Source: Chelatococcus caeni
GTDB lineage: Bacteria > Pseudomonadota > Alphaproteobacteria > Rhizobiales > Beijerinckiaceae
Assembly (NCBI RefSeq): GCF_014196925.1
Contig: NZ_JACIEN010000004.1
Location: 310,001 to 374,000 of the forward strand
Reading direction: 5' to 3'
Length of the DNA: 64,000 bases
In this document: positions 21,901-41,797 of the stretch, one piece after another
Layout of the letters: each line of letters starts with the position of its first letter
Position numbering within the stretch: the stretch's first letter is position 1
The notes under the pieces: generated by a model
The model's database searches: none
What the model saw: the letters and a program-made list of their open reading frames with translations, nothing else
Told to the model about the DNA's origin: nothing
Program-made: the position numbers and the translations under genes

Positions 21901-22136
21901 TGCATGTAGAGCATGCCCTCGACGCCGTTGATCTGCTGCTCCAGCGGTGCGGCGACCGTCTGGGCGACGGTTTCCGCGCTCGCGCCCGGATAGGTCGCGG
22001 AGACGACGACCTGTGGCGGCAGCAGCTCGGGATATTGCGCGATCGGCAGGACGCGGATGGCGACGATGCCGGCGAGCACGATGACGATGGAGATGACGGC
22101 CGCGAAGACCGGCCGGTCGACGAAGAAGCGGTTCAT
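18969..22136 (-). CDS. RND efflux pump permease, HAE1 (AcrB/MexB) family
   Basis: 1055 residues, full length for the family. Starts [25 protein letters not shown]4 carries the proton-relay pair in [23 protein letters not shown]; other hallmarks are [36 protein letters not shown] and [25 protein letters not shown]. It exports hydrophobic drugs or lipids through the periplasm. Its start overlaps the adaptor stop by four bases. No outer-membrane channel gene is in the window, so it must recruit one encoded elsewhere. Confidence 0.96.
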
Positions 22137-23311
22137 TGTCTTGCTGCCAGATCGGCCTTGGTCACGGGCGGGGTCGCGGCGACGGCCGCGCCGGGACGCA
22201 CCTTGATGACGCCTTCGGTGATGAGCCTGTCGCCCGCCGCAAGGCCCGAGAGGATGACGAAGCCGCCCTCGACCTGCGCGCCGGTCGTGACCGGACGCGC
22301 CTGCGCCTTGCCCTCGGTGTCGACGGTATAGACGAACTGCCCCTTCGGCCCCTGCATCAGGGCGCCCTCCGGCACGACGATGGCCCCGTCCAGGGTGAGC
22401 CCCTTGATCGTCGCGCGCACGAACTGGCCGGGGATGAGCCGGCCCTCGGGATTGGCGACGACGGCGCGGGCGCGCAGCGTCCCCGTGGAGACGTCGATGC
22501 TGCTCGCGGTGAAGTCGATGGTGCCCTCGCGCTCGTAGGCCGTTCCGTCGCGGAAGGCGATGGCGACCTTGAGCTCCGTGGAATGCCCGCCCCTCTCCTC
22601 CTGCCGCGCGAGCAGGCGACGAATGTCGGCCGCCTCCGCATCGGAGAAGGAGAAGTTGACGTAGACCGGATCGAGCTGGGTGATGGAGGTCAGAAGGCTC
22701 GCATCCGACCCGGTGCCGATGAGGCTGCCTTCCGGCACCTCCTCAAGGCTCGTGACGCCACTGATCGGCGCCGTCACCTGCGTATAGTCGAGGTTGAGCT
22801 GCGCCGTCTTGACCGCCGCCTCGGCCGCAGCCATGGCGGCGCGCGTCAGCTCCTCGTTGGAGACGGCATCATCGCGCGCCTTCTCGCTGCCGATGTTCTT
22901 CTCGTAAAGGCTCGCCGCCCGCTCGGCGTCGCGCACCGCCTGGTTATGCTGCGCGACAGCCTGCTGCAGGCGCGCCTTAGCCTCGGCCAATGCCGCCTCG
23001 TAGCGGTCCGGATCGATGACGAAGAGGATGTCGCCGGCCTTAACACGGGCGCCCTCGGTGAACTTGCGCTCGAGCAGGATGCCGCCGACGCGCGCCCGCA
23101 CCTGCACCTCGCGGAAGGCGGAGATGCGGGCGGCGTACTGGAAGGTGAGCGGCACATCCCGCGCCGCGAGCTCGACCACGGTGACCTGCGGCGGCGGCGC
23201 GCCCTGCTGGGCCCCCGCCTGCCCGATCGGCGCGGCCGCGAGAAGCGCAGCCACCAGGGTCGCTGCGAGCGGCTTTGCGATTGACGAGGGAAAAGCTGTA
23301 GGAATGGCCAT
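22133..23311 (-). CDS. RND periplasmic adaptor (AcrA/MexA family)
   Basis: 392 residues with a signal peptide (cleavage after IGQAGA). Lipoyl/barrel-sandwich parts: [37 protein letters not shown] and [28 protein letters not shown], flanking a helical hairpin ([26 protein letters not shown]). No lipobox Cys, unlike AcrA, so it is probably not lipid-anchored. Operon with the RND permease (4-base overlap), divergent from tetR. Confidence 0.94.
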
Positions 23312-25000: not shown

Positions 25001-26083
25001 CTAGCGGCCGCCCCTGGAAATAGCGCTTGCCCCGGCCCGCTGCAATTTTCCATGCAGGAGCTGCAGCGCGACGCTCGGATGCCGCACGAGCGCACGCACC
25101 AGCAGCCCGAGCGAAGCCCCCCGCCGCCGCTGCGCCCACAAACCGCGCGCAGCACGCATCAGGAAATGCGCCAGACGCGGATCCCGCCGTGCTTCGACAG
25201 GCAATTCAGCATAGTCGCGCAGGGCCTGCTCGATCGTCGCGAGGTCGGCAAGGGAGAGCATGTTGTGTTTGTGCGTAAACAGTTCCGCTTCGATGTCGCT
25301 GCGCAGATGCGGCGGGATCAGCTCGATCGTAGTGTCATCGATGACGTCGACATCGTTGGTGGGATCGGCGAGGCCGGCAGCGCGTGTCCGGTGGGCGAGA
25401 CGGGCAATGATGGTCGCGAGAGCCTGCTGGCGCCGATGCACGAAGGAGACATTCGCGTCGTGCTGCCGGTAATCGAGGACCGGAACCGGAACGTTCTCGA
25501 TGGAATAGCCCGCATCGTGGATGCGCAACCAGAGATCGTAGTCTTCCGCATGCTTGTATTGCGGACGGTAGCCGCCAAGCTGAACAACGACATCACGGCG
25601 CATGACGACTGTGGGATGGGCGAGCGGCGGCGCATCCGACGTGAGGAAGCGCGTCAGTGTCTCGCCGCCGGTGGGATAATCCCCAACCCGCAGAAGCAGG
25701 CCTTCAGCGTCGACGATGTTGACGAAGCCACCGACGACGGCAAGCTCCGGCCGTCCCTCGAACCGCGCGAGCTGGAGCTCGAAGCGGCGCGGCAGGGCCA
25801 CGTCGTCGGCGTCCATGCGCGCGATGAAAGGCGCGACGGCGAGCTCGATCCCGCGATTGAGCGTCGCGACAAGCCCCCGGTTCTCCTGATGAAAGGCGCG
25901 GATCCGCCCGTCACGCGCGGCATAGCCGTCGATGATCTCTCCGCTGCCATCCCCCGAGCCATCGTTGATGATGATGAACTCGAAATCCTCGAAGGTCTGG
26001 CCAAGTACGCTCTCGATGGCGGCGGCCAGGAAGCGCTCGCCATTGTAGACCGGCAGGAGCACGCTCAGCGCGGGGCTGCTCAT
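25001..26083 (-). CDS. Glycosyltransferase family 2
   Basis: 360 residues. LSVLLPVYNGERFLAAAIESVLGQTF, FIIINDGSGDGSGEIIDGYAARDGRI, LNRGIELAVAPFIARMDADDVALPRRFELQ (DADD) and YKHAEDYDLWLRI mark a GT2 of the WfgS/SpsA type. Its ATG overlaps the GT11 stop (ATGA). The C-terminal 120 residues are helical and basic and may contact membrane or acceptor lipid. Acts in the cytoplasm on undecaprenyl-linked glycan. Confidence 0.88.
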   Translation of the reverse strand: MSSPALSVLLPVYNGERFLAAAIESVLGQTFEDFEFIIINDGSGDGSGEIIDGYAARDGRIRAFHQENRGLVATLNRGIELAVAPFIARMDADDVALPRRFELQLARFEGRPELAVVGGFVNIVDAEGLLLRVGDYPTGGETLTRFLTSDAPPLAHPTVVMRRDVVVQLGGYRPQYKHAEDYDLWLRIHDAGYSIENVPVPVLDYRQHDANVSFVHRRQQALATIIARLAHRTRAAGLADPTNDVDVIDDTTIELIPPHLRSDIEAELFTHKHNMLSLADLATIEQALRDYAELPVEARRDPRLAHFLMRAARGLWAQRRRGASLGLLVRALVRHPSVALQLLHGKLQRAGASAISRGGR

Positions 26084-26976
26084 TTGAGGATGATCCAGCC
26101 TTCGGGGAAGAGATCCATCACATTGGTCGTCGCCAGCCGCGAGCGCGTGAACCACTGTCCGGGCGCGATCGTCACCTTGTCCGGCGAAGGGTTCAGCCAC
26201 GCTCCCCACCAGGAATAGGAGCTGTTGGCAATGATGTGATGATGGCAGCCCGCCATCAGGAACATGTCCTCCCAGCTCCGCTCCGGGTCGGTACGCACGA
26301 CATGGGCGCGCGGCAGATCGGCGAAGGCCTGCTGCACGAAATCTGGCTCGTCGGAAAACAGGAAGAAATCGACGTCCTCGCCGAAGATGCGGCGAATGAC
26401 GGCAATGGCGCGACCGTAATAGCCCTCGCCAAGCGCGGCGTGCACGGCCGCGGCATCAGGGTTCGTCACATAGTCTCCGCGCCGCACGTGCAGAGACACG
26501 CTGCAGCGCGACGCCGCGATGCGCTGCGACCACTCCTGTGCGGCGGGGCCGAAGGGCTCGATCGGCTGGAAGTGCCTGCGCAGCACATCCTGACAACCGG
26601 CAAAATAGAGGGGGCTCTGGAAATAGCCCTCGAGCCTGATCTCGTCACCCGTGAGCGTGAAGAACGCCTCGTCGAAATGGAAATGGGGTTCGACATAGAG
26701 GCCATTCGCCTTCACGCCCCCACCCGTCAGGCGCCGGACGACCCTTGCCGGCAGGGACCGGCCGGCCGGTCGGCGCAACGGCTGCTCCGCAGAGATATCC
26801 TGCGGCACCTGCAACCTGTCGAGCTGATAGGGCCAGGTCGCGTAGGCAGAGAAAGCGGAGAGGTCGAGCGTAACCCGCGCCTCCCGCCGCACCGCGAGGC
26901 CCAGCGCAGCCGCATATTGAAACATCTGGTTGCCGAGACCGCCGACAAGGCGGATCGTGATGGTCGGGCTACTCAA
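26080..26976 (-). CDS. GT11 family alpha-1,2-fucosyl/colitosyltransferase-like enzyme
   Basis: 298 residues with the GT11 motifs: IRLVGGLGNQMFQYAAALGLA at the N-terminus, SVSLHVRRGDYVTNP (the HxRRxDY donor motif) and FLMAGCHHHIIANSSYSWWGAWLNPSPDKV. Family members transfer GDP-L-fucose, or GDP-colitose in E. coli O55 (WbgN). Because the cluster contains gmd, an fcl/colC homologue and a ColD-like dehydratase, either donor is possible. Overlaps neighbours by four and eight bases. Confidence 0.93.
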   Translation of the reverse strand: MSSPTITIRLVGGLGNQMFQYAAALGLAVRREARVTLDLSAFSAYATWPYQLDRLQVPQDISAEQPLRRPAGRSLPARVVRRLTGGGVKANGLYVEPHFHFDEAFFTLTGDEIRLEGYFQSPLYFAGCQDVLRRHFQPIEPFGPAAQEWSQRIAASRCSVSLHVRRGDYVTNPDAAAVHAALGEGYYGRAIAVIRRIFGEDVDFFLFSDEPDFVQQAFADLPRAHVVRTDPERSWEDMFLMAGCHHHIIANSSYSWWGAWLNPSPDKVTIAPGQWFTRSRLATTNVMDLFPEGWIILK

Positions 26977-27958
26977 AAAAACGTCTCCGGTCGTTCAGCA
27001 GGTGCCTGCGCAGGCGCCAGACCCCGTACCGCCCCAGCATTCCCCCGAGCGCAAGCCACAGATCGCCACGGCTCTTGAACAAGGAGCGGGCGAGAGGACT
27101 ATCATGGCTCTCAAGCGCCCGATAGAACGCATCGATCCGCTGCGGTTCCAGGATGCTTGGCAACAGCAGCAACAAGGCCCGCCTGCGCAAATTCGAGCGG
27201 AAGGCGGGGCTCGAAGCGACGACATCGTCCCATTTGCCGAAAATGATCAGATGCTGGAGGAAAAAATCGAGCGCTCTGCGCTTGGCATTCTGTCGCTGGA
27301 TACTGTTCCCGTGAATCCGTATCTGGACCACAGGCTCTTCAGTAAAGTCGAAATCTGCGACAGACGCCAGACGGATCCACATATCCCAGTCGGCGCCGTG
27401 GAACAGGCGCTCATCAAAGCGCCCCACCCGATCGAGCACGTCGCGTCTCACGACAACCGACGAAGCCGATCCCGAGACGACATAATTCTCCAGCAGCACC
27501 TGGTGAAAGATGTTGCCACGCCTCTTCGGTGGCACGACCAGAGCGTCTTTGAGAAGATCGCCGTTCTCGTCAATGTGCACATAGGCGCTGTGTACGACGC
27601 CGACACGATCGTCAGCCTCCGCAAAGACTCGCATCTGCGCCTCGAGTTTGCGCGGCAGCCAGATGTCGTCAGCGTCCAGGAAAGCGATGTAGGGGGCATT
27701 CGACGCGTCGATGCCGCCGTTGCGGGCCGACGACTCGCCCCCATGCGGCAGCCGCAGATGCTCGACAGTGTCGAACTCCCGGGCGAGCCGTTCGGCGATG
27801 GCCGGAGTGGCGTCGGTCGAACCGTCATCCGCTATGATGATCCGCGCCGCCGGCAGTGATTGTCCGGCCGCCGAGCGAACGGCCGCCTCGAGATACTTCG
27901 CCCCATTGTAAACCGGGATGACCACATCGACGTCGCGACTTCCGGCGGCACCAGCCAT
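26969..27958 (-). CDS. Glycosyltransferase family 2, sister of the next gene
   Basis: 329 residues from the ATG at 27958 (MAGAAGSRD); a TTG at 27973 right after GGAAGG is an alternative. Motifs: VDVVIPVYNGAKYLEAAVRSAAGQ, RIIIADDGSTDATP, NGGIDASNAPYIAFLDADDIWLPRKLE, and HGADWDMWIRLASV. By eye it is about half identical to the GT2 at 28007-29014 along its whole length, including VSGSAS and RVHG-type segments, so the two arose by tandem duplication. It overlaps the GT11 gene by eight bases. Confidence 0.88.
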   Translation of the reverse strand: MAGAAGSRDVDVVIPVYNGAKYLEAAVRSAAGQSLPAARIIIADDGSTDATPAIAERLAREFDTVEHLRLPHGGESSARNGGIDASNAPYIAFLDADDIWLPRKLEAQMRVFAEADDRVGVVHSAYVHIDENGDLLKDALVVPPKRRGNIFHQVLLENYVVSGSASSVVVRRDVLDRVGRFDERLFHGADWDMWIRLASVADFDFTEEPVVQIRIHGNSIQRQNAKRRALDFFLQHLIIFGKWDDVVASSPAFRSNLRRRALLLLLPSILEPQRIDAFYRALESHDSPLARSLFKSRGDLWLALGGMLGRYGVWRLRRHLLNDRRRFFE

Positions 27959-28006
27959 GACCGTTATATCCAACCTTCCGTAAAGCCCGCCCGAGGGCGA
28001 TCAGAC

Positions 28007-29014
28007 CTAAGAGATACCGGGTTCTTTTCCCGTCCCGCCCGGACGCAACAGCTTCGACACCCCAGTCTGCCACGCGGCATGCCTGGCCAGAGCCATACAA
28101 AATTCCTTGGCGAAATCCGCCCACCCACTGAAGAGCGGTCCCTGGGCACCGATTCTCGATTCCCGGACCACACGCATGAAGGCAGCAATTTCTCGAGGGT
28201 ACTGCCAGGCTTGGACAGCCAGAAGTGCCGCGCGACGGCGCAACGTTCGAGGGAGTTGCGGTAGAAGCGCGACCTCCGCCGGCCATTTCGAATAGATCAT
28301 CAGATGCTGCGCAAGAAACCCCAGCTGCCGACGTCGAAACAGCCTGTTCTGTGCACTCCTGCCGTGGACCCGCACATGCACCAGTTCCTCCGCCACATAA
28401 TCAAAGGTGCCGACAGCGGCAAGCCGCAGCCAGAGGTCCCAATCTTCCCCATAATAAAGACGCTCGTCGAACCGACCCACGAGGTCCAGACTGCTCCGCC
28501 GGATCAGAACCGCCGAGGCTGATCCTGACACCGCGTTGTCTCCGGCCAGCAATTCGCGGAATATTCCGCCCCGTAAGCTCGGTGGTGTAATCGCTATTCC
28601 GGATATACGTGACCCCGCAGCGTCAATGCATTCATAGGCACAATAGACAAGTGCCAGATCGACATTTGATGATGCGAATACCGCTGCCTGCCTGGCCAGC
28701 TTCTCTGCTGCCCAGAGGTCGTCCGCATCCAGGAAAGCAATGAACGGGGAGGACGATTCCCCTATGCCAGCGTTCCTTGCCGCCGACACGCCCCCATGCG
28801 GCAGCCTCAGATACGTGACGAACGCCAATTCCGATGCGAGCTTTCTGGCGATGGACGGCGTCTCATCCTGCGATCCATCATCGGCAATGATAATTCTGGC
28901 CGGCCTCAACGTCTGAGCGGCAGCAGAACGGACGGCCTGTTCAAGATAGGATGCGCCATTGAACACCGGAATGATGACATCTATCTCCGGGCCGGCCTGC
29001 GGTCTGCCGCTCAA
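28007..29014 (-). CDS. Glycosyltransferase family 2, sister of the previous gene
   Basis: 335 residues. Begins at a TTG that overlaps the upstream TGA (TTGA) and has GGAGGAG a few bases upstream; no ATG fits. Motifs: IDVIIPVFNGASYLEQAVRSAAAQT, RIIIADDGSQDETPS, NAGIGESSSPFIAFLDADDLWAAEKLA, YYGEDWDLWLRLAAV. Translation is presumably coupled to the GT10-FkbM gene. The paralogue lies 48 bases downstream; they may add similar sugars at successive positions. Confidence 0.87.
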   Translation of the reverse strand: MSGRPQAGPEIDVIIPVFNGASYLEQAVRSAAAQTLRPARIIIADDGSQDETPSIARKLASELAFVTYLRLPHGGVSAARNAGIGESSSPFIAFLDADDLWAAEKLARQAAVFASSNVDLALVYCAYECIDAAGSRISGIAITPPSLRGGIFRELLAGDNAVSGSASAVLIRRSSLDLVGRFDERLYYGEDWDLWLRLAAVGTFDYVAEELVHVRVHGRSAQNRLFRRRQLGFLAQHLMIYSKWPAEVALLPQLPRTLRRRAALLAVQAWQYPREIAAFMRVVRESRIGAQGPLFSGWADFAKEFCMALARHAAWQTGVSKLLRPGGTGKEPGIS

Positions 29015-30693
29015 TCACTCCTCCTCGTCCAACCTTCCCACACAAAAGGATATCGCCACGCAAGCCGATGCGTCCTGCGCAGCTCTCTTGCAAGAGAACG
29101 GTAGCGGCGACGGGCATTGGGTACATTCAGATGAAACTGGATCTGCAGGTCTTTGATACGCTTGATATGCCCCGTCGCTACAAGTCGCTCCAGCAGGGCA
29201 TACTCGCCTCCCTCGATATTCAGCTTCGCCAAATCGAACTCTCTTGTCGGGCTCTCGTCGAGATAACGTGCAGCATCAATCAACCTTACGTCGACCAGGG
29301 CTCCCGGCTCGCATACGAATGCGCCGGACGCGTCGTCATCGATACTGAACTTTGCTTCGCCGTCGCGCTCGGCCAGCGCAGCTTCTATCACGTTCACCCG
29401 GGGGTCGCCTGAAAAGCGCGACCGGATGATGTCCGCAAACTGCGGGATGGGCTCGAAAACAGTAACGTTGGCCCCGAAGTCTCCGATCAGCCGGGCTGCG
29501 AAGTCACCTCTGAACCCACCAACGTCGAGAACATGGCTGGTGGCGTTCAGCTTATACGCATAGCGGATCCGTTCTTCGGGTTCGTCCCTCAGCCAAGCCT
29601 GATGCGATCGATAATGAATGTCGCGCATCTTGCGCGCGAAATCTTTCGAACGCACCCAGCTCGATTTCCAGCCATCGCGAGCGCCTTTGGCTGCTCTATG
29701 GAGCGCGGGGGCCCGCTTCAGAAGCTGGACCAGCCGGCGGCGCGCCCGCATCTTCGCGGACTGGAAATGTTCTTCCGGAAGAACGGAAATCGGCACACCC
29801 GCTGTCAACGGCTCCTGAGCCACGTCCCTCGCCACCCGCGCCAGCAAAGCGAACAGATTGTGCTCGTAGAGCACGCGCCGGCGCGCCTCCTCGAGCAACG
29901 GCTGCGCCCGCTCGGCTTCGTCGGATTGGATGACACGCTTGATCGTTTCGATAGCCTTGGCCGGATCGTAGATGTCGATCGCCGTGAAGCTCCCTTCCGG
30001 GAAGTATTCCCCGATGTTCCGGCAGCCATGATAGATCGGATAGGTCAGCGTCAGGAACGGGTCGGCAAGCTTCTCCGTCCAGTAATCGTCGATGGCGCAA
30101 TTCTCCAGCGCGATATGATACCAGTACGGCGCAAGCACCTGCAGCTTGTCACCAAAGTCGTTGATGCCCCGTCCGAATACGTCCATCTGATCGCCGAAAT
30201 GTTCCTTCAATTCGGCAACGAAACGCAGGCGGGCGCGATGCTCCTCGGTGAAGGCCTTGTTCGATGAGACGACGGAAACGAGCTTCGTCTTCTCTGGGCG
30301 GAACGTCTCGAAATCCCGGACGGTCAGCGGCTCGGCGAGCAATGATCCATCGGCGCTCCAAGCCCCGACATGCCAGGGCAGACCGACCTGGGTGAAGCGG
30401 CGGCCGCCGTGGGCGGTGTCGCGATCAGTCGTCAGCACCGTTCCGAACTGGTCGAGGAAAGCGGCGTTGTATCGCTTCACGTTCTGCGGCTCGGAGGCCA
30501 CGAAGACGAGACGGCAGCGGTCGAGCGGCACCTCGACCGCCTGCGGCAGTGCGTCGAAGACGAAACAGCAATCGCAGCCGGCAAGATCGCCGCCGAAGAC
30601 GAACTGCACGCCGTCCCAAACGAGATCCTCCTCCGGGAACTGGCGCCACCACGCCCATTCAGGAGCCGAGGAAACAAAACCAGCCTTGATCAC
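29011..30693 (-). CDS. Fusion of a GT10-like fucosyltransferase and an FkbM methyltransferase
   Basis: 560 residues. Residues 1-300 resemble GT10 alpha-1,3-fucosyltransferases: WYHIALENCAIDDYWTEKLADPF followed by PIYHGCRNIGEYFPEGSFTAIDIYD (190-242) is the conserved donor site (ENxxxxxYxTEKxxD...PxYxG). A basic linker (315-365) leads to an FkbM-type SAM-dependent methyltransferase: VLDVGGFRGDFAARL (388-402), TVFEPIPQF, and LNIEGGEYALLERL (491-504). The protein could transfer a fucose-like sugar and O-methylate it, as NoeI-type enzymes do for rhizobial Nod factors. No frameshift: one continuous frame. It overlaps both neighbours by four bases. Confidence 0.82.
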   Translation of the reverse strand: MIKAGFVSSAPEWAWWRQFPEEDLVWDGVQFVFGGDLAGCDCCFVFDALPQAVEVPLDRCRLVFVASEPQNVKRYNAAFLDQFGTVLTTDRDTAHGGRRFTQVGLPWHVGAWSADGSLLAEPLTVRDFETFRPEKTKLVSVVSSNKAFTEEHRARLRFVAELKEHFGDQMDVFGRGINDFGDKLQVLAPYWYHIALENCAIDDYWTEKLADPFLTLTYPIYHGCRNIGEYFPEGSFTAIDIYDPAKAIETIKRVIQSDEAERAQPLLEEARRRVLYEHNLFALLARVARDVAQEPLTAGVPISVLPEEHFQSAKMRARRRLVQLLKRAPALHRAAKGARDGWKSSWVRSKDFARKMRDIHYRSHQAWLRDEPEERIRYAYKLNATSHVLDVGGFRGDFAARLIGDFGANVTVFEPIPQFADIIRSRFSGDPRVNVIEAALAERDGEAKFSIDDDASGAFVCEPGALVDVRLIDAARYLDESPTREFDLAKLNIEGGEYALLERLVATGHIKRIKDLQIQFHLNVPNARRRYRSLARELRRTHRLAWRYPFVWEGWTRRSD

Positions 30694-32192
30694 ATACGCC
30701 CCCTGACAGCCCGGATGGCGGAACGCCCGGTCCGGAAAACGTATCGCACGCCGCGGAACAACGGCGGAGGCAGTGTCTGGCGCAACGTTTCCGCCGTCTT
30801 CCCCGGCAGTTGCGGCAGCCAGGCGCGCAGTTCACCGTAAGACGCCCGTACCGACCTGCGCACGCGGTCCCCCACGGGCTCCCGCGGGCGCGCCTCCATG
30901 ATCAAACGGCAATCCCGCAGGTCTTTCTTGGCGCCGCGGAAGCTCTTGAACAGGAGAACGGTCTCGAGGGAGAGATATTTGACGCCCTTGTAGCTGAAAT
31001 GGTACGCAGGATTGAAGACGAGCTCATCGACCGGGATCTGGAACTCCCGATACTCATCGTTGTGGCAGGCAAGCTCGCCGCCCCCAAGAAGCGGAAAGCT
31101 TTGCTGAGGGACGATATAGTCGACATCATTACAGTCCCGCAGCCCGAAAGCCGCCAGAACCGCCCCGGAGTCGATGCAATAGGCCGCCGGATTGGCCACG
31201 GCGCCCAGGCCGGCCTCGTATTCCGCCAGGAGCTTGCGGAATCGCTTCGGCTGGAACGTCGGCCGCAGGTTCAGGAACTTCACGCCATTGGGATTGAGGA
31301 CGAGGTCCCCGATCCAGCGCGTCTCCCGATGCGTGTCGTTCATGTGCACGTAGTGCAGTTCGGGAAAAGCCTGCCGCACATGTTCCTTCGTGGGGCGCGA
31401 GCCTTCGCCCGGCGGCGTCTTGACAAAGACGACCTTGGCATCGCCCCCGTTGGGAAAGCGCAACCGCACGAATCGATCGAGCAGGTCCATGTTCCACCAG
31501 GGCTCGTGCCCGTACAGCAGCTCGATGAGGTTACGGCGCCCCTGCTCGGTCAGGGAAATGTCCTTGGCATGGATAATCTGCGTCTTCTCCGCGAGCCGGC
31601 TCAGGGCCGCATCGACCTCGGCCCAAGGGGCGGGAAAGAAAACCGCCGCATAGCAATCCTCGTCGAGCGCCAGGTATTCGTTGACGAGTTGCTCGACGAC
31701 CGCCGCGCTCATGCCGATGCGCAACAGGGCTGCCGCATCCTGTTTCTGCAGCGGACCCTCGAGTCGGACCGCGTCGACAGGTTGCTTGAAATAGAGCGCC
31801 GTCGCCAGCCGGTGGGCGCCGTCGACAACCGTATTGCCCGTATAGGGTACGAGACCCCGCGCCTGGTCGTAGCCGTTCAGCGACACATCGTCGATGAGTG
31901 CCGTGAAATGCCGGAGATAGTCGGTAAAACTGCTCTTCCGGCCATCACCGTCCCGGAACTCGGCGTTCCAGCTCTCCAGCAGATGGCGATAGACACTCGT
32001 GCCCCAGCCGACGGCCCAGCCCTGTTCGCGCTGGCGCACGAAAACGTACCGGGCCATGAGATCCAGCCTATCCGGAGAAACCAGCGCGAGAGGATCGCAA
32101 CGTTCGATGCGCGCCTCGGCCGGCACGCGGTAATAGTTGAAGACGTTTGCGTCGATGCGTGTCCTGATCGGATCTCGCGCTGCGCGACTCAT
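30690..32192 (-). CDS. Unclassified 500-residue protein: ParB-like DGAHR motif plus nucleotidyltransferase-like C-terminal part
   Basis: Start ATG with GGGGAGGAA upstream. Residues 118-145 (NTVVDGAHRLATALYFKQPV) look like the DGxHR loop of ParB/sulfiredoxin-type folds. A middle part (180-300) has no match I recognise. Residues 338-361 (YCIDSGAVLAAFGLRDCNDVDYIV) with 405-431 (KYLSLETVLLFKSFRGAKKDLRDCRLI) resemble a nucleotidyltransferase-like core (GLR..xDVD plus the KxxR.KD..D helix). The last 65 residues are basic. No signal or membrane segment. It lies inside the O-antigen operon, after wzt and overlapping the GT10-FkbM gene (ATGA), so a role in glycan modification or control is likely. Function unknown; domains inferred from short motifs. 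Confidence 0.7.
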   Translation of the reverse strand: MSRAARDPIRTRIDANVFNYYRVPAEARIERCDPLALVSPDRLDLMARYVFVRQREQGWAVGWGTSVYRHLLESWNAEFRDGDGRKSSFTDYLRHFTALIDDVSLNGYDQARGLVPYTGNTVVDGAHRLATALYFKQPVDAVRLEGPLQKQDAAALLRIGMSAAVVEQLVNEYLALDEDCYAAVFFPAPWAEVDAALSRLAEKTQIIHAKDISLTEQGRRNLIELLYGHEPWWNMDLLDRFVRLRFPNGGDAKVVFVKTPPGEGSRPTKEHVRQAFPELHYVHMNDTHRETRWIGDLVLNPNGVKFLNLRPTFQPKRFRKLLAEYEAGLGAVANPAAYCIDSGAVLAAFGLRDCNDVDYIVPQQSFPLLGGGELACHNDEYREFQIPVDELVFNPAYHFSYKGVKYLSLETVLLFKSFRGAKKDLRDCRLIMEARPREPVGDRVRRSVRASYGELRAWLPQLPGKTAETLRQTLPPPLFRGVRYVFRTGRSAIRAVRGRM

Positions 32193-32286
32193 ACTTTCCT
32201 CCCCGCCGCAGATACGCCGATCGGCGAAGGGGCCATCCGGAACCCCCGGCAAATGGATGCACACTTTAGGAACATGATAAAGAACG

Positions 32287-33579
32287 TTAATCCGATTCCC
32301 GTGTGGATCCTGCATGCCAGGTGAGGACAGGCGCAGCGCTGCCGGGCCGGCGAGAACGCCAGTAGGGCGAAGGGCTCAATCCTCCCGCAATCTGAAGCTG
32401 AACGTGGGCGGAAGTACTTCCAGGCTCCGAGAACCATCCCTGGCCGTGCAGGGATGCGAAGAAGTCGACCCGATACTTTCCTTCATTGAGCAGATGGGGT
32501 GGAATTTGCGCGTAGAGCTTGTTTCGTCCCAAGCTCAAGCTGGGCCATTCATGTTCCGCCCGGTCCGTCGTCACCGACCAGAAAACCTGCTGGCCCTGTT
32601 CGTCGATGACAGCGAAGCCGAAGTTCAGCAACGGGCTCAAGCGGTGGATATCCACCTCGATCTCGACCGTGGCGGGTCGATCGTTTGGCGTCGGCTGATC
32701 AAGGGTGCTGCCCTCCGCATCGACTACGCGGAACGAGCGCAGGCTGAAATATTCGCTATCGAGAGGGCTGTCCTCCGCTGTGATATAGGCGCCTTTCAGG
32801 GCACCGCCGCTGCCGAGCAGATAGCGCCCGCAAACCTCGTGCACCGCGCGCGTGTCTTCGCGAATGCTGCCACGCTCCAGCCACAGGACGCGCGAGCACA
32901 GCTGCATCACCGCATTCATGTTGTGCGATACGAACAGCACGGTGCGGCCGGAATTCGCCACGTCCTTCATCTTGCCGAGGCACTTCTTCTGGAAATCGGC
33001 ATCGCCGACCGCCAGCACCTCGTCGACGACCATGATCTCGGGTTCGAGATGCGCCGCCACGGAGAAGGCGAGGCGCATCTTCATCCCGCTCGAATAGCGC
33101 TTGATCGGGATGTCGAGGAAATCGCCGACGCCCGAGAATTCCACGATCTCGTCGAAGCGGGCGCGAATCTCGTGCTTGCGCAGGCCGAGAATGGCGCCGT
33201 TGAAATAGATGTTCTCCCGCCCCGACAACTCGGGATGGAAGCCCGTGCCGACCTCGAGGAGCGAGCCCACCCGCCCGCGGATGCGGGCCGTGCCTTCGCT
33301 CGGCGCCGTGATCCGCGACAGCACCTTCAGCAAGGTGCTTTTTCCCGCCCCGTTGCGGCCGACGATGCCCACGACCTCGCCTTCGGCGACGTCGAAACTG
33401 ACATTGCGCAGCGCCCAGAAGGACCGTGCGGCCTCCTTCTGCTCTGTTGCCGGCGCACGTGAGAACAGCCGGCGGGCGGCATCGGCCAGGCTCTCACGCA
33501 AGGTGGCATAGGCCGGCGCGCCGGTGCCGCTCAATGCATATTGCTTGCCGAGGTTGTCGACGGTGATGATGGCGGACAT
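32287..33579 (-). CDS. wzt: O-antigen ABC exporter ATPase, long Wzt with C-terminal carbohydrate-binding domain
   Basis: 430 residues. ABC domain 1-255: Walker A VGRNGAGKSTLL, signature KRYSSGMKMRLAF, Walker B EIMVVDEVLAVGDADF, H-loop LFVSHN. Residues 280-400 (DSEYFSLRSFRVVDAEGSTL ... VEIEVDIHRLSP) form the beta-sandwich Wzt C-terminal domain that binds the finished polymer in E. coli O8/O9a-type systems. That implies export recognises a capped or otherwise specific chain end; an FkbM methyltransferase in the same operon could make the cap. It starts three bases after wzm. Confidence 0.93.
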   Translation of the reverse strand: MSAIITVDNLGKQYALSGTGAPAYATLRESLADAARRLFSRAPATEQKEAARSFWALRNVSFDVAEGEVVGIVGRNGAGKSTLLKVLSRITAPSEGTARIRGRVGSLLEVGTGFHPELSGRENIYFNGAILGLRKHEIRARFDEIVEFSGVGDFLDIPIKRYSSGMKMRLAFSVAAHLEPEIMVVDEVLAVGDADFQKKCLGKMKDVANSGRTVLFVSHNMNAVMQLCSRVLWLERGSIREDTRAVHEVCGRYLLGSGGALKGAYITAEDSPLDSEYFSLRSFRVVDAEGSTLDQPTPNDRPATVEIEVDIHRLSPLLNFGFAVIDEQGQQVFWSVTTDRAEHEWPSLSLGRNKLYAQIPPHLLNEGKYRVDFFASLHGQGWFSEPGSTSAHVQLQIAGGLSPSPYWRSRRPGSAAPVLTWHAGSTRESD

Positions 33580-33582
33580 CGC

Positions 33583-34443
33583 TCAGATCCTGTCGACGAT
33601 GGCCGGCTCGAGCTTGCGGAACGTGCCGAGCCCGAGCGCCGTAAGGCCGATGACCCATGCGGCAAGGACCGCATAGCTGAGGAGACCGGGCCACGGCGCG
33701 GCAATGATGATGGCGCGCATCGTGTCGATGAGCGTCGCCACCGGGTTGAGCGCATAGAGCCACTGATACTGCGGCGGCACGAAGGTGACCGGATAGATCA
33801 CCGGCGTCAGATACATGGCGATCTGAACGAAGAACGGCAGGGCAATGCCGACATCGCGATAGATCGCGTTGAGCGGCGAGAGCACGAGCCCGATGCCATA
33901 GCCGAGGAGCCCTGCGGCAAGAAGGATGAGCGGCAAAAGGACGATCAGCGGCGACGGCACCATGCCATAGGCGAGCATCATCGCGACGAGCACGACGAGC
34001 GCGATGAGGAACTCGACGGCCGCCGACAGAGTCGGCACGAGCGGCAGGAGCAGGCGCGGGAAGAAGACCTTGGTGATGATGGCCTCGTTCTTCACCAGCG
34101 AGCCCGACGCCTCGACGACGACGCGGCTGAAGTACTGCCACATCAGGAGGCCGGAGAAGACGAAGATCGGATAGGGAATCCCGTCCGTCGGAATGCGGGC
34201 CAGATAGCTGAACACGAAGGTGAAGATCGCCGTCGTCAGCACGGGCTGCAGCAGGGCCCAGGCGATGCCGATCAGCGACTGCTTGTAGCGGATCTGGATC
34301 TCGCGCAGCGCCAGCGTCCAGGCGATATCACGGTTCGTCCACACGTCCGCGATGTCGTGTATCAGGTGGTGATCGGCGCGTGCGCGGATCACCACTTCCG
34401 TCTGCTGCGGCGACGCGGGCGTATCCATGGGAGCAACTGTCAT
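33583..34443 (-). CDS. wzm: O-antigen ABC exporter permease Wzm
   Basis: 286 residues, six membrane segments of the ABC-2 type. The family segment VWTNRDIAWTLALREIQIRYKQSLIGIAWALLQPVLTTAIFTFVFS at 33-79 is characteristic. Start ATG with GGAAAGG upstream. Pairs with the Wzt encoded three bases downstream; exports undecaprenyl-linked polysaccharide. Follows the ColD-like gene by 24 bases. Confidence 0.94.
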   Translation of the reverse strand: MTVAPMDTPASPQQTEVVIRARADHHLIHDIADVWTNRDIAWTLALREIQIRYKQSLIGIAWALLQPVLTTAIFTFVFSYLARIPTDGIPYPIFVFSGLLMWQYFSRVVVEASGSLVKNEAIITKVFFPRLLLPLVPTLSAAVEFLIALVVLVAMMLAYGMVPSPLIVLLPLILLAAGLLGYGIGLVLSPLNAIYRDVGIALPFFVQIAMYLTPVIYPVTFVPPQYQWLYALNPVATLIDTMRAIIIAAPWPGLLSYAVLAAWVIGLTALGLGTFRKLEPAIVDRI

Positions 34444-34467: not shown

Positions 34468-35661
34468 TTACGCGGAGACGGGCGCGCGAGACGAAACCGC
34501 ATCCTCGATGGCGGCACGCAGGACCGTGAACTCCTCCTCGAGCGGATAGTGGTGGTTACCGATGAAGAAGCCCGCCTCGTCGATGCGTTCGGCGTTCGGC
34601 AAATTGTCGCTGATCGTGTAGTCGAACCAGCGCAGCACCTCGTTCTTGGCGAAGTTGCCGGCGACGATCGGCCTTACATCGATCCCGGCGCGCGTGAATG
34701 CGGCGATAAGATCGGCCCGTGAAACCGGTGCATCCGACTCCACGATCATGCTGAACCCGAACCAGCTGCTTTCGCCGATCTCCCGCTGAGGCCGCAGGAA
34801 GGGATAGTCCCGCACGAGTTCGAGGAAGCGTTCCGCATTCCTGCGGCGCTCGGCGACGAGATTGGGCAATTTGCGCAATTGCGCGAGGCCTATGGCGCCG
34901 CTCATCTCAAGGGGGCGCAGGTTGTAGCCCGGCAGGATGAAGCGGAACGATTCGGTGAAGGGGTCGTCGCTCTTGGGCGTCGAGACATGATTGAACTTGG
35001 GCAGGTTGCGCGTCCAACCATGCGCCCTGAGGGCGAGGAGGATGTGGTAGAGCTCCTCGTCGTCCGTCACCACCATTCCGCCTTCCATCGTCGAGATATG
35101 GTGACTGAAGAAGGCGCTGAAGCTGCCCATCACGCCGAAGGTGCCCGTCTGGCGCCCTTCGAATGTCGCGCCCATGGATTCGCAGTTGTCCTCGATGAGG
35201 GCGATGTCGCGGTCGCCGACGATCCTTGCGATCTCGGCAAAATCATTCGGATTGCCGAGCAGATTGACGATCATGATCGCCCGGGTCTGCGGCCCCACGG
35301 CGCGGGCGAGCTTGCCGAGGTCATAGTTCAGCGTGTCGCGGTCGACATCGACGAAGCGCAGCTTCAGGCCATACTGGTAAAGCGGATAGTAGGTCGTGCT
35401 CCAGGAGACGGCAGGCACGATCACCTCGGCGCCGGGCTCCAGCGCACCCTGCTTGCGATAGCGCAGAGCCGCCACCATGAGCAGGTTGGCCGAGGATCCG
35501 GAATTGACCATCACGCAATGGCGGCTGCCGGTGTAATCGGCAAAGGCGCGTTCGAATTCGGCGACGCGCGCGCCCATCGTGAACATGCCGGAATCGACGA
35601 CGGTCTGGATGGCCGCGATCTCCTCGTGGTCCCAGCTTGAATTAGCGAGCGGATAACGCAT
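34468..35661 (-). CDS. ColD-like PLP-dependent GDP-4-keto-6-deoxymannose 3-dehydratase (His in place of Lys)
   Basis: 397 residues of the DegT/DnrJ/EryC1 fold. The start ([30 protein letters not shown]), preceded by GGGAG, resembles ColD. The PLP-site motif reads FSAFFSHHISTMEGGMVVTD: aligning F-S-x-x-x-x-K-N with it puts H187 where aminotransferases have Lys. This substitution is the mark of 3-dehydratases (ColD, RfbH) that make 3-deoxy sugars, not amino sugars. With Gmd and the fcl/colC homologue upstream, the expected product is GDP-4-keto-3,6-dideoxymannose on the way to GDP-L-colitose. Its 5' end overlaps the previous gene by 20 bases. I checked the two His codons in the DNA. Confidence 0.82.
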   Translation of the reverse strand: MRYPLANSSWDHEEIAAIQTVVDSGMFTMGARVAEFERAFADYTGSRHCVMVNSGSSANLLMVAALRYRKQGALEPGAEVIVPAVSWSTTYYPLYQYGLKLRFVDVDRDTLNYDLGKLARAVGPQTRAIMIVNLLGNPNDFAEIARIVGDRDIALIEDNCESMGATFEGRQTGTFGVMGSFSAFFSHHISTMEGGMVVTDDEELYHILLALRAHGWTRNLPKFNHVSTPKSDDPFTESFRFILPGYNLRPLEMSGAIGLAQLRKLPNLVAERRRNAERFLELVRDYPFLRPQREIGESSWFGFSMIVESDAPVSRADLIAAFTRAGIDVRPIVAGNFAKNEVLRWFDYTISDNLPNAERIDEAGFFIGNHHYPLEEEFTVLRAAIEDAVSSRAPVSA

Positions 35662-36586
35662 CAGCAGCTCCCGAGGAGAGATAGAAATCGTAGGTGGCAC
35701 GCAGGCCTTCGCGCAGGGACGTCTGCGCCTGCCAGCCGAAAGCCTTCTGCCGTGAGACGTCGAGCAGCTTGCGCATCATGCCGACGGGCTTCGTCGTGTC
35801 ATGCACGAAGCTGCCCGTGTAGCCGACGACCTCGGCGGCAACCGCGTAATATTCGTTGACGCTGTAGTCCTCGCCGAGGCCGACGTTCAGCACATCCGGC
35901 ATTTCAGCAAAGCGGTCCACGGCGAACAGGATGGCGTCGGCGAGATCACCGGAATACATGAACTCGCGACGCGCCGTGCCGTCCCCCCAGATCTCCACCT
36001 CCGGAAGACCGTCGCGCTTGGCCACGTGGAGCTTGTGGATCACCGCCGGCACCAGGTGCGACACGGCCGGATCGAACTTGTCGTGCCGCCCGTAGAGGTT
36101 GCACGGGATCATCGTCTTGTAGAGCAGCGAGGGATCTTCCCGATGCACATAGCTGCACAGCCGGGCGATGGCGCATTTGGCCAGCGCATAGCCTTCATTG
36201 GTCGGCTCCAGCGTGCCGCTGAGGACATCCTCCTCCTTCAGCGGATCCGGACTGTTGCGTGGAAACATGCAGGAGCTGCCGAGGTTGAGGAGCCGCGTGA
36301 CACCCGCCTCGCGCGCGGCGAGCACGATGTTGCGGCCGATGTCCCAGTTCTCCGTCAGGAAGCGGACAGGCTCGCGGATGTTCGCCTGGATGCCGCCGAC
36401 GCGCCCTGCCGCGTGCACGACGATGTCGGGACGCACCTCACGCAGGACGCGGAGCGTCGACGCATGATCCGTCAGGTCGAGCTCGGTGCGCCGGGGCGCA
36501 ACAACCTCGATCCCGCGCTCGCGGCACAGGTCGATGATGTTGCGGCCGACCATGCCGCCTCCGCCCGTCAGGAGAATGGTCGTCAT
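35642..36586 (-). CDS. GDP-fucose/GDP-colitose synthase-type epimerase-reductase (Fcl/ColC)
   Basis: 314 residues, extended SDR. NADP motif [11 protein letters not shown] at the N-terminus; catalytic Ser in [10 protein letters not shown] and YALAK dyad; [25 protein letters not shown] and [20 protein letters not shown] are Fcl/ColC signatures. With Gmd alone it would make GDP-L-fucose; with the ColD-like dehydratase it would act as ColC and make GDP-L-colitose. Sequence does not decide between them, and it could serve both. Overlaps gmd by four bases. Confidence 0.9.
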
Positions 36587-37689
36587 TCGCCGGCGGCTCC
36601 ATTGCGCACGGCGGTGTTGCTGAGCGCGCGCATCTGTTCCTCGCGACGGGCCTCGGCGAGATCGCTCTCCACCATCTCCTTCACGAGCTCCCGGAAGCTG
36701 ATGCGGTGCTGCCAGCCGAGCTTTTCGCGGGCCTTGGAGGGGTCGCCGAGGAGGAGGTCGACTTCGGTGGGGCGGAAATAGCGCGGGTCGATGCGCACGA
36801 GGGTCTTGCCGCTCGCCTCGTCGATGCCGACCTCGTCGACGCCCTCACCCCGCCAGGCGATGGTGCGGCCCAGCTCGGCGAAGGCGAGCTCAACGAATTC
36901 GCGCACCGAGTGGGTCTCGCCGGTGGCGAGCACATAGTCCTCGGGCGTGTCCTGCTGCACGATGCGCCACATGCCCTCGACATAGTCGCGCGCATGGCCC
37001 CAGTCGCGCTTGGCGTCGAGATTGCCGAGGTAGAGCGCCTCCTGCAGGCCGCATTCGATGGCCGCGACGGCGCGGGTGATCTTGCGGGTGACGAAGGTCT
37101 CGCCGCGGATCGGGCTCTCGTGGTTGAAGAGAATGCCGTTCGAGGCGTGCATGCCGTAGGCCTCGCGGTAGTTCACCGTGATCCAGTAGGCATAGAGCTT
37201 GGCCGCGGCATAGGGGCTACGCGGGTAGAAGGGCGTCGTCTCGCGCTGCGGCGTCTCCTGCACCTTGCCGTAAAGCTCGGAGGTGGAGGCCTGATAGAAG
37301 CGCGTCTTGCCCTCGAGCTTCAGCAGGCGGATCGCCTCGAGCAGGCGCAAGGTGCCGATGGCGTCGGCATTGGCCGTGTATTCCGGCGTCTCGAAGCTCA
37401 CCTGCACATGGCTCTGGGCGGCGAGGTTGTAGATCTCGTCCGGCTGGATCTCCTGCACGATGCGGATGAGATTGGTCGCATCCGTCATGTCGCCGTAGAT
37501 CATGCGGAAGCGCGGATCGCCCTCGTGCACGTCCTGATAGAGATGGTCGACGCGCGCCGTGTTGAAGGACGAGGAACGGCGCTTCACGCCCCAGACGCGG
37601 TAGCCCTTGGCAAGGAGCAGCTCCGCCAGATAGGCGCCGTCCTGGCCGGTCACGCCGGTGATGAGTGCACGTTTAGACAAGTTGCTCAT
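36583..37689 (-). CDS. gmd: GDP-mannose 4,6-dehydratase
   Basis: 368 residues. [104 protein letters not shown] (YxxxK) and [20 protein letters not shown] are diagnostic for Gmd. It turns GDP-D-mannose into GDP-4-keto-6-deoxymannose, the branch point to fucose, colitose or perosamine. Overlaps the regulator gene and fcl/colC by four bases each. Confidence 0.97.
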
Positions 37690-38393
37690 CCTTCCATTGC
37701 TGGCGCGCGCTGCGCGCCGGTATCCGGTCGATCCTCGCCGCGGGCAAGGGTCTCGTCAGCCATCGCCTCAGTGCCGGCTCCGGCGGAGGCGGCGGCCACG
37801 GAGACATGCAGCAGCGGCGGGGTCACGATGCGGTTGCTGTCGACCTGCCCGCCGAGGCGGTCATAGGTCGCCTGCGGCGTGCGCGCATCCGTCACCACCA
37901 CGGCGTCAAAGGCGGGCGCCTCTCTCAACGCCCGCACCACCGGCACGCCCGCGACGCGGCCGCGGTTGGTCTCGGCATCGAGCACCGCAACGACCTCGAT
38001 CGCGTTATCGCGGGCCGCGAGAATGGCGATCTCGGCAAGCTCGCCGGCCCCCGCCAGGACGACGCGGCGCAGGCCGACGACATCGAGGCGGCGGAAGCCG
38101 TCCGCATATTGCTCGCGCGCATCGCGGAAAAAGCGCAGGGAAATGTCGAGATAATCGGCCACGAGCCGGCTCTTCTCGGAAAAGCCGCTCGGCGTCAGGT
38201 AATAGGCGTAGCGCTTGTAGGGAGCGGCCCTGGCCTTCACATAGCCCTTGCGGATGGCGCGCTTGAGCAGCGCATTGACGAGGCCGATGGAGACGCCGAT
38301 GCGCTGCGACAGCGACATCTGCGTCACCACTTCCCCGCTTTCCAGCGAAGCGAGCAACTCGAGGTCGACCTCGGTCGGGAGCTTGTCCGCCAT
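37686..38393 (-). CDS. Winged-helix regulator with C-terminal Rossmann-like sensor domain
   Basis: 235 residues from the ATG at 38393 (MADKLPTEV). N-terminal winged [56 protein letters not shown], like the EPS-associated MarR-type regulators. The second half has a glycine-rich nucleotide loop, [17 protein letters not shown], and [21 protein letters not shown], resembling the CoA/nucleotide-sugar-binding Rossmann domains of PglD-type proteins. It may sense a nucleotide sugar or NAD(H). It is embedded between manC and gmd and follows the 47-bp double palindrome. An acidic/Ala-rich tail ends the protein. Confidence 0.8.
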
Positions 38394-38430
38394 CTGCCCT
38401 GCGTCTCGTGCGATCCGGCGGTTCGAATAG

Positions 38431-38477
38431 TCGTTCACGGCGTGAACGTCAAGGCGTGACGTTCACGCCGTGAACGA
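38431..38477. promoter_or_regulatory. 47-bp perfect inverted repeat made of two palindromes, probable operator
   Basis: Arms of 21 bp (38431-38451 and 38457-38477) are exact reverse complements around AGGCG. Each arm contains its own palindrome CGTTCACG-n-CGTGAACG (38432-38448 and 38460-38476), so the site holds two head-to-tail dimer sites 28 bp apart. It lies 38-84 bases upstream of the regulator start and 14 bases after the manC stop. In RNA it would form a 21-bp hairpin, but there is no T tract, so an operator is more likely than a terminator. Confidence 0.7.
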
Positions 38478-38491
38478 AGCGCGGACCTCTG

Positions 38492-39922
38492 TCAGACCCG
38501 CTTGTAGATGTCCTCGATGCGGACGATGTCGTCCTCGCCGAGATAGGGGCCGGACTGCACCTCGATGAGGTTGAGCGGCAGCTTGCCCGGGTTCTCGAGC
38601 CGGTGCACGCAGCCGAGCGGCAGGAAGATCGATTCGTTCTCGCGCAGCAGGATCTGCTCCTCGTCCCGGGTGACGAGGGCCGTGCCGTTGACGACGACCC
38701 AGTGCTCGGCGCGGTGGAAATGCTTCTGCAGCGACAGCTTGGCGCCGGGATTGACGGTGATGCGCTTGACCTGAAAGCGCTCGCCGTCGTGCACGGACTG
38801 GTAGAAGCCCCACGGGCGATAGACGCGCTGCGTCTGCGTGGCCGCGGCGTGGCCGTCCTTCTTCAGCGTCGCGACGAGCTGCGAGACCTTCTGGTCGCTG
38901 TCGCGCCGCGTCACGAGCACGACGTCGGGCGTCGCCACGACGACGAGGTCCTCGACCCCGAGGGCCGCGACGAGGCGGCCTTCGCCGCGCAGATAGGAGC
39001 CGCGCGTCTCGAGCGCCACCACGTCGCCGACGCACAGGTTGTCGTCCGTGTCCCGGCTGCCGATCTCCCACAGGGCCGACCAGCTGCCGATGTCGCTCCA
39101 GCCGAATTCGGACGGCACTACGGCGGCCTTGTCGGTCTTCTCCATCACGGCATAGTCGATCGAGATCGACGGTCCGGCGGCGAAGGGGGCCTCCGCGAGG
39201 CGCAGGAAGTCGAGGTCGCGCGCGGCGCCCTTCAGTGCCTCCCCCGCCGCGGCGAGCACTGCGGGCGCATGGCGCTCGAGTTCGGCGACGAAGACGGCAG
39301 CGGGCAGGAGGAAGATGCCGCTGTTCCAGAAATAGTCGCCCCCGGCGACATAGCCCTCGGCCGTCGGCCGGTCGGGCTTCTCGACGAAGGCGGCGACGGC
39401 GTTGATGCCAGGGGTCCCCGGCAGCGGATCGCCGCGGCGGATGTAGCCGTAGCCGGTGGCTGGCTTGTCCGGGCGCATGCCGAAGAGCACGAGGCGGCCG
39501 GCCGAGGCCGCGGCCGCGCCGGTGGCCACCGCGGCGCGGAAGGCGGCGGCGTCCTGCACCACGTGGTCGGCCGGCATGATGAGGATCAGCGCATCGGGGT
39601 CGCTCTCAGCCGCCATCAGCGCCGCGACCGCCGCCGCCGGCGCGGTATTGCGGCCGACCGGCTCCAGCACGATGGTGACGCCCGCGATGCCCGCCTGGCG
39701 TGCCTGTTCGGCGATGACGAAGCGATGCTCCGCATTGGCGATGACGACGGGCGCGGCAAAGCCCGGCTCGCCGGCGACACGCGCCAGCGTCTGCTGCAGC
39801 AGGCTCTCCTCGCCGGCGAGCGCCAGGAGCTGCTTGGGAAAGGATTCGCGCGACAGCGGCCACAGGCGCGTGCCAGTGCCCCCGGACAGAACGACCGGGA
39901 CAATCCGCGGATGCTTCGCCAT
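38492..39922 (-). CDS. manC: Mannose-1-phosphate guanylyltransferase / mannose-6-phosphate isomerase, type II
   Basis: 476 residues. Guanylyltransferase domain: VVLSGGTGTRLWPLSRESFPKQLLAL at the N-terminus, FVEKPD (FVEKP motif), NSGIFLLPA, SIDYAVMEK. C-terminal cupin: RPWGFYQSVHDGERFQVKRITVNPGAKLSLQKHFHRAEHWVVVNGTA, the isomerase/epimerase-like part of type II enzymes. Supplies GDP-mannose to Gmd. First gene of the minus-strand operon; the upstream gap 39923-40066 holds no gene. Confidence 0.96.
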   Translation of the reverse strand: MAKHPRIVPVVLSGGTGTRLWPLSRESFPKQLLALAGEESLLQQTLARVAGEPGFAAPVVIANAEHRFVIAEQARQAGIAGVTIVLEPVGRNTAPAAAVAALMAAESDPDALILIMPADHVVQDAAAFRAAVATGAAAASAGRLVLFGMRPDKPATGYGYIRRGDPLPGTPGINAVAAFVEKPDRPTAEGYVAGGDYFWNSGIFLLPAAVFVAELERHAPAVLAAAGEALKGAARDLDFLRLAEAPFAAGPSISIDYAVMEKTDKAAVVPSEFGWSDIGSWSALWEIGSRDTDDNLCVGDVVALETRGSYLRGEGRLVAALGVEDLVVVATPDVVLVTRRDSDQKVSQLVATLKKDGHAAATQTQRVYRPWGFYQSVHDGERFQVKRITVNPGAKLSLQKHFHRAEHWVVVNGTALVTRDEEQILLRENESIFLPLGCVHRLENPGKLPLNLIEVQSGPYLGEDDIVRIEDIYKRV

Positions 39923-40066
39923 GTGGGCCCTCCCGTCAGCCGACGAGAGGCGCCGGCGCCACGCGCCCTTCCCCCGTCGAGTGTCGTCGTGCGAGTCGCG
40001 CTCGATGCCGCTTCCTAGCGCAAAGCGACAATCATGGAAATGCCGGTCGCACAGCTCCGGGCCGGC

Positions 40067-40810: not shown

Positions 40811-40819
40811 GCCGGCTCC

Positions 40820-41629: not shown

Positions 41630-41797
41630 CTGCTGGTTTCTTGCTGTTTGCGTGGCACCGCATGGGACGGACCGCTGCGGCATTGTGCGCCGGACGCGGC
41701 CGCCCTCATCCGCTTCGGTGCTCGTGCCTGCAGCCCGCGCGATGGCGCACAGCGCCCTCAAGGAGCGGGACGAGCGCCGCATCTTTCCGGATCGGCG

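Follow-up and report, generated by a model that had tools for sequence, protein, structure and literature searches.

Introduction

WbdD and LicD are glycan-modifying enzymes that exemplify phosphate chemistry on surface glycans. Among the enzymes of the ParB-CTPase fold (SerK, SbnI and sulfiredoxin, Srx), a GxxR or GxHR phosphate loop is a motif of Srx and SerK. Nucleoside diphosphate kinases (NDKs) are recognized at their active site by the lysine of a KPD motif and a Glu partner of the catalytic histidine, and the nucleotidyltransferases of the MNT/Pol-beta type by the signature G[GS]-x(9-13)-DxD. SerK has been described as phosphorylating free serine with ADP (PMC5120207), and FKP (L-fucokinase / GDP-fucose pyrophosphorylase) as a single-chain kinase and nucleotidyltransferase serving fucosyl transfer (PMC11982464). 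According to a 2025 survey, the ParB fold is by now regarded as a general nucleoside triphosphate (NTP) module (PMC12704722). Here we analyzed a gene at positions 30,690–32,192 on the minus strand of a 64,000-nucleotide stretch of Chelatococcus caeni (contig NZ_JACIEN010000004.1, positions 310,001–374,000; hereafter the window). In its 500-residue product, hereafter the module, the centre is NDK-like and contains an invariant histidine, the C-terminus is nucleotidyltransferase-like, and the GxHR-type N-terminus resembles, with moderate confidence, ParB, Srx and SerK; near-invariant polar residues occur in each.

Copies of the module are fused to, or lie close to, glycosyltransferases and FkbM methyltransferases. 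We propose that the module is a nucleotide-dependent phosphotransfer enzyme serving surface-glycan glycosyltransferases, a reading to which we give a probability of roughly 0.5. The folds and the context are already known; for the three-domain combination, a ParB–NDK–nucleotidyltransferase protein, no description was found in the openly searchable literature, supplements and InterPro/PANTHER names aside. The domain search of the 2025 survey started from PF02195, and other fusions are listed there (PMC12704722), whereas PF02195 has no match among the Pfam results of the 43 members of our family alignment; the terms "nucleoside diphosphate", "nucleotidyltransferase" and "polysaccharide" do not occur in the main text of that survey. 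In this family, glycan assembly seems to be where a ParB-like domain works, and the domain is attached to an NDK-like domain, whose histidine is invariant, and to a nucleotidyltransferase-like domain. Should the chemistry prove real, surface glycans would receive phosphate or nucleotide by a new route, in phages too, and a function would be assigned to scattered proteins that are currently annotated as hypothetical, for example in both plasmid records described below.

The module gene and its family

The open reading frame (500 codons plus stop) was established by frame reading and by comparison with homologues, in agreement with the frame originally predicted. All features described below lie on the minus strand unless stated otherwise. 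Its start codon, the ATG at 32,192, matches the N-termini of three homologues in the alignment and is preceded by GGGGAGGAAAGT, which places a Shine-Dalgarno-like GGGGAGG (32,198–32,204) 5 bases upstream; an alternative longer frame opens at 32,315. The stop codon and the GTG start of the next gene (29,011–30,693) share GTGA. A search of its own genome with the module listed one match, the module gene. Homologues are 18–31% identical to it, and because they can be aligned over most of its length, with 16 invariant columns across 43 sequences, the frame is more than a chance opening: the module gene is a real gene. The motifs previously picked out by eye are also present as written, namely DGAHR at residues 124–128, GLRDCNDVD and KKDLRDCRLI.

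Homologues in a known named family would have counted against the original prediction. No Pfam or NCBIfam model matches the module protein at E values up to 1. The 43 aligned members gave matches to 16 Pfam models (at E up to 1) and to 5 NCBIfam models (at E up to 0.1), every one of them weak and confined to a single member, and no Pfam or NCBIfam family names the module in the query or in these members.

The family is widespread and sporadic across bacteria and tailed phages. Near its own lineage the module is rare, with matches in 2 of 199 related genomes (its own included), and a four-sequence profile run against 398 genomes of the phylum returned its own genome only. Relatives were found on two plasmid records with the window protein as query and on three with a relative as query, on 40 viral contigs, and at 43 loci in public genomes that span many phyla. 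Above 200 bits, 83 module copies were retained, which fall into 56 clusters at 70% identity (41 cellular, 15 viral). The low-scoring L043–L045 and L084 were dropped from this set, L001 and L005 represent the window locus itself, and the 66 loci of a second viral scan are not part of it. The alignment comprises 43 of the 83 copies; those left out include near-copies, members lacking the nucleotidyltransferase region and two plasmid records. When 20 viral records were tested for terminase, 11 gave a match, which in 10 exceeded the curated cut-off; many viral members are therefore tailed phages. A collection of phage records gave no match with three queries, and the viral members are accordingly known solely from IMG/VR contigs. 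In a structure search of predicted viral proteins, seven matches had E ≤ 1e-3 (best 9.2e-14), all from giant viruses; three of them are named glycosyltransferase, and no TM-score, taken by query length, exceeds 0.48. The relation to giant viruses is best described as a likeness of predicted structures.

Three predicted domains with near-invariant residues

An AlphaFold2 model built from the family alignment reached a mean predicted local distance difference test (pLDDT) score of 88.1 and a predicted TM-score of 0.85, with the last ~65 residues poorly modelled. The best-supported domain is the NDK-like centre (residues ~172–312; 31,257–31,679), which was delimited by hhalign and by fold matches. 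Among the 50 PDB matches listed, 43 are titled NDK, NDPK or NME (probability 0.95–1.00), and radial-spoke entries occupy ranks 1 and 3. An hhalign comparison of the middle slice with 25 NDK sequences spans 111 columns and sets VHInDT on VHGSDA at E 0.0032; its score of 24.0 was reached by none of 300 column shuffles (best 20.3) and compares with 9.3 for a reversed alignment. In the window protein the corresponding segment is VHMNDT (residues 282–287; 31,332–31,349), in which H283 pairs with the NDK catalytic histidine. This [IV]H-x-x-D catalytic-histidine motif is retained throughout the family: H283 and D286 are present in 83 of 83 copies, as are Y227, K269 and R273, and W232 is present in 82. 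In element order, in a histidine at the catalytic position and in the majority of its top fold matches, the predicted centre resembles nucleoside diphosphate kinase (PF00334), from which it differs in lacking several NDK site residues and in belonging to a glycan-associated protein.

The C-terminal domain (residues ~313–436; 30,885–31,256) was modelled alone with a pLDDT of 93.1. Its first 12 PDB matches, at E values of 0.1–2.6, comprise 11 nucleotidyltransferase-type chains and one AbiE-system entry; they include ANT(2''), the Mimivirus and Megavirus polyadenylate synthases, JHP933, another H. pylori nucleotidyltransferase, TM1012 and MenT1. The remaining 24 matches have probabilities of at most 0.15. 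Two motifs recall the MNT/Pol-beta enzymes (ANT(2''), TM1012, JHP933, MenT, AbiE). The first, SG...GLR...DVD (residues 342–358; 31,119–31,169), corresponds to a [GS]-x-G-x-R-x3-DxD core whose two acidic residues are conserved in the alignment (D356 in 42 of 43, D/E358 in all 43). The second, the KxxR...KDxxD helix (residues 416–427; 30,912–30,947), retains D424 and D427 in all 77 copies that have the region. In contrast to those enzymes, the module's domain stands behind two other domains, and no Pfam nucleotidyltransferase model, nor LicD (PF04991) at E up to 1, matches the 43 members; the nucleotidyltransferase models also fail to match the window protein. The individually weak and mutually consistent fold matches suggest that the predicted C-terminus fits a nucleotidyltransferase fold. 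The aligned core is absent from 6 of the 83 copies (L077, L081–L083, L086 and L087), whose tails are apparent domain remnants in four cases, a weak hexapeptide-repeat match in one and short in one. Since the nucleotidyltransferase motif has disappeared from some relatives, the ParB–NDK part is probably the core of the module.

The N-terminal domain (residues ~30–165; 31,698–32,105) fits, with moderate confidence, a ParB/sulfiredoxin/SerK-type domain on the combined evidence of hhalign, the model, PHROG and SerK matches. The DGAHR loop (residues 124–128; 31,809–31,823) contributes H127 and R128, both retained in 81 of 83 copies (the exceptions being one E/T and one gap), and K86 is kept in all 81 copies having that position. 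An hhalign comparison with 22 ParB_N sequences (E 0.0098) matched GAHR to the GERR site. One of the 43 members matches the SerK model NF053625 at E 0.05, and a PHROG search with six members returned a ParB-like family (E 0.0076, one phage member), a nuclease family (0.0038) and an unnamed family (1e-5), in one member each. Viral entries named ParB or Srx appeared in the structure search at E 0.013 and weaker. The GxHR-type loop and the SerK match link the module to SerK, SbnI and sulfiredoxin; unlike them, it goes undetected by PF02195, has two extra helices before the core in its predicted model, and is joined to NDK-like and nucleotidyltransferase domains. ParBc_2 (PF08857) was also considered as a model for the N-terminus and was dropped, its readable rows having DHHH and not GxHR; no conclusion was drawn from it.

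The same GxHR loop and the weak ParB-like PHROG match would also be expected of a ParB-type DNA-binding or partition protein lying in the operon by chance. We regard this as exceedingly improbable: the Pfam matches that the 43 members gave at E values up to 1 include no helix-turn-helix family, and relatives are fused to glycosyltransferases and FkbM domains. Where the original prediction had guessed at two domains, staking itself on the fold showing at least one of them, its ParB-type loop gains moderate support from the GxHR-type N-terminus and its nucleotidyltransferase gains support from the motif and from the consistent, individually weak fold matches; the NDK-like centre is what it missed.

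Association with glycosyltransferases and FkbM methyltransferases

A survey of the neighbourhoods of homologues showed the module to be often fused to, or near, glycosyltransferases, GT10 in particular, and FkbM methyltransferases. In the window, its gene overlaps by GTGA a gene (29,011–30,693) encoding a GT10-FkbM fusion. The coupling had been noticed before and holds on closer reading: the GT10 half scores above the Pfam cut-off, and the FkbM half below the Pfam cut-off and above that of NCBIfam TIGR01444. By Pfam, one relative (L085) carries GT10-FkbM-module-GT2 in a single chain, and the window pair, module gene followed by GT10-FkbM gene, amounts to three of these four parts spread over two genes. 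Further architectures assigned by Pfam are GT10-module-GT2-GT2-FkbM-GT1 (L051), GT10-module-GT2 plus repeats (L048), FkbM-module-GT2-type (L046, L054, L070) and, in phages L006 and L030, GT2-module.

Counted by cluster with purpose-built hidden Markov models (HMMs; that for GT10 from five sequences) over stretches of ~4–21 kb, 12 of the 41 cellular clusters have GT10, 11 have FkbM and 18 have either of the two; for the 15 viral clusters these numbers are 10, 2 and 10. As a background scale, 12 of 150 whole genomes from the phylum carry GT10. Each of the 12 cellular GT10 clusters has the GT10 motif or a Pfam match. The motif, or something close to it, is present in 5 of the 10 viral calls and absent from the other 5, among which L007 had no Pfam match at 1e-4; the GT10 argument leans on the 12 cellular clusters. 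Upstream neighbours in 10 of the 34 GT10-less clusters comprise seven glycosyltransferases, one flippase-type protein, one epimerase and one protein without a match, and six downstream neighbours in GT10-less loci comprise three glycosyltransferases and three proteins without a match.

The wzm-wzt setting named in the original prediction holds in the window, where the module gene adjoins a wzt-like gene, and its partner is an FkbM methyltransferase; wzm- and wzt-like genes also lie near the module in two Clostridia loci, L064 and L077. An O-antigen chain terminator or chain-length regulator of a wzm-wzt pathway, acting in the manner of WbdD, would suit this setting. Of the 55 other clusters, only 2 were found to have such genes, and the 15 viral ones were all without a match; these counts are lower bounds because they come from single-sequence phmmer searches of short fetched stretches. 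Given that wzm-wzt is not a constant partner, the chain-length role suggested earlier is disfavoured and we judge it very unlikely; the same inconstant link separates the module from WbdD.

Weighing the phosphotransfer reading

Under the phosphotransfer reading, the ParB/SerK-like domain would transfer phosphate from an NTP or nucleoside diphosphate (NDP) to a small acceptor, either a sugar or a substituent on one. Relay of a phosphoryl group through H283 would fall to the NDK-like domain. The nucleotidyltransferase domain would then either activate the phosphorylated product or place a nucleoside monophosphate on a sugar hydroxyl, and the coupled glycosyltransferase would add or decorate the glycan residue. 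Expressed in full, this would be a three-step machine (ParB/SerK-like kinase, phosphohistidine NDK-like relay, nucleotidyltransferase) whose product, a phosphorylated or nucleotidylated sugar of a new kind, would pass straight to the fused glycosyltransferases, in bacteria of many phyla, in tailed phages and, by structural match, in giant viruses. We put this full version forward tentatively and consider it somewhat doubtful as a whole. The transfer of a phospho- or nucleotidyl group, which the original prediction had offered as one option, is still plausible.

Several results weigh against the phosphotransfer reading. Profile HMMs of the module and of each of its parts found no relevant chain among PDB sequences. 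None of the listed PDB matches reaches E 1e-3, the best titled NDK standing at 6.1e-3, and the best match of the C-terminal model has E 0.1. The nominal hhalign probability is 9.9% for NDK and the probability for ParB is 4.2%, the ParB score being equalled by 2 of 300 column shuffles. PF00334 matched only one of the 43 members, at E 0.081. In the hhalign pairing, the site of the KPD lysine is position 186, occupied by F, W, H or Y in all 43 sequences; that of the Glu partner is position 294, where 42 of 43 carry a hydrophobic residue; and the alignment lacks the loop that follows NDK helix 4. The middle domain may therefore not be an NDP kinase: the label "NDK-like" is justified for it and the label "NDP kinase" is not. 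Neither GT10 nor FkbM shows up in the fetched stretches of 23 of the 41 cellular clusters and 5 of the 15 viral ones.

The partial loss of NDK active-site residues, together with the copies in which the nucleotidyltransferase core is absent or survives as an apparent remnant, would be in keeping with a regulatory or scaffold module. Its domains, with nucleotides bound or with no ligand at all, would adjust the glycosyltransferases or keep them in place and would catalyse nothing themselves. The near-invariance of polar residues in all three domains (H283, H127 and R128, D424 and D427) argues in the other direction, and we consider a regulator or scaffold unlikely.

Donor supply or recycling is a further explanation, and the coupling to GT10 speaks for it. 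The module would make or regenerate a nucleotide sugar, for example GDP-6-deoxyhexose, for the coupled glycosyltransferase, with its NDK-like domain re-phosphorylating the released NDP and its nucleotidyltransferase re-activating the sugar. This would be FKP-like work; the resemblance to FKP, kinase and nucleotidyltransferase in one chain, is by analogy only, with FKP folds that we take to be unrelated to those of the module. The window operon contains gmd, fcl-like and ManC-type genes, and at least 13 of the 55 other clusters, six viral ones included, have gmd-like genes (lower bounds, obtained as for wzm-wzt). No gmd-like gene was found in the fetched stretch of the other 42, the window already holds genes for de novo GDP-sugar synthesis, canonical NDP kinase residues are partly missing, and some members lack the nucleotidyltransferase motif. 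On balance, donor supply appears rather unlikely, and phosphotransfer in the service of surface-glycan glycosyltransferases remains the reading that we prefer.

Tree and transfer

A quick tree was computed from 55 of the 56 cluster representatives, the incomplete L088 being left out. The window copy sits on a long branch beside L052 and L054 (Shimodaira–Hasegawa-like approximate likelihood ratio test, SH-aLRT, 82) and then L046 (88); neither of these branches earns the tree program's star. FkbM fusions occur in these neighbours, in L046 and L054 by Pfam and in L052 only by the purpose-built HMM. GT10 linkage requires at least 11 changes on the tree, 10 under a stricter list, and has thus been gained or lost repeatedly. 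The mixed taxa in the tree fit horizontal transfer. Separately, L052 (2178 aa) and L054 (2066 aa) each hold FkbM-type, module, GT2-type, weak GDSL-like and methyltransferase stretches in one chain.

The operon and the wider window

Upstream of the module gene lie a Wzt-like ATP-binding cassette (ABC) ATPase (32,287–33,579) and a Wzm-like ABC-2 permease (33,583–34,443), identified by Pfam and NCBIfam. Because the Wzt_C match of the former and the NCBIfam Wzt and Wzm matches of both fall below their cut-offs, "wzt" and "wzm" are here names by resemblance. They are followed by a DegT/DnrJ/EryC1 family protein (34,468–35,700; nearest NCBIfam model RfbH, below its cut-off), a GDP-L-fucose synthase-like epimerase (35,642–36,586; below the NCBIfam cut-off), the GDP-mannose 4,6-dehydratase gene gmd (36,583–37,689; above the NCBIfam cut-off) and a ManC-type nucleotidyltransferase / mannose-6-phosphate isomerase (38,492–39,922). 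On the other side of the GT10-FkbM gene are two GT2 glycosyltransferases (28,007–29,014 and 26,969–27,973) and a GT11 glycosyltransferase (26,080–26,976). The G+C content is 0.62–0.63 at 26–35 kb of the window and 0.66–0.69 on either side.

Several other features of the window were recorded. A 250-residue protein (37,686–38,438) shows an odd pairing of a MarR_EPS-like N-terminal winged helix with a second half weakly like NeuD/PglB, both matches lying below NCBIfam cut-offs. A second pair of ABC ATPase and ABC-2 permease (40,067–41,782) lies near the first O-antigen-type operon and is adjoined by a GT2-type gene (41,798–42,778). Antisense to this pair, an open frame of 863 codons without a Pfam match (40,034–42,625, plus strand) is probably not a gene. 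An AcrB-type resistance-nodulation-division (RND) pump and its HlyD-type partner (18,969–23,311) adjoin the glycan operon, and an 800-residue protein encoded on the plus strand (43,745–46,147) combines a GT2 domain with a GT1/GT4-type C-terminal match.

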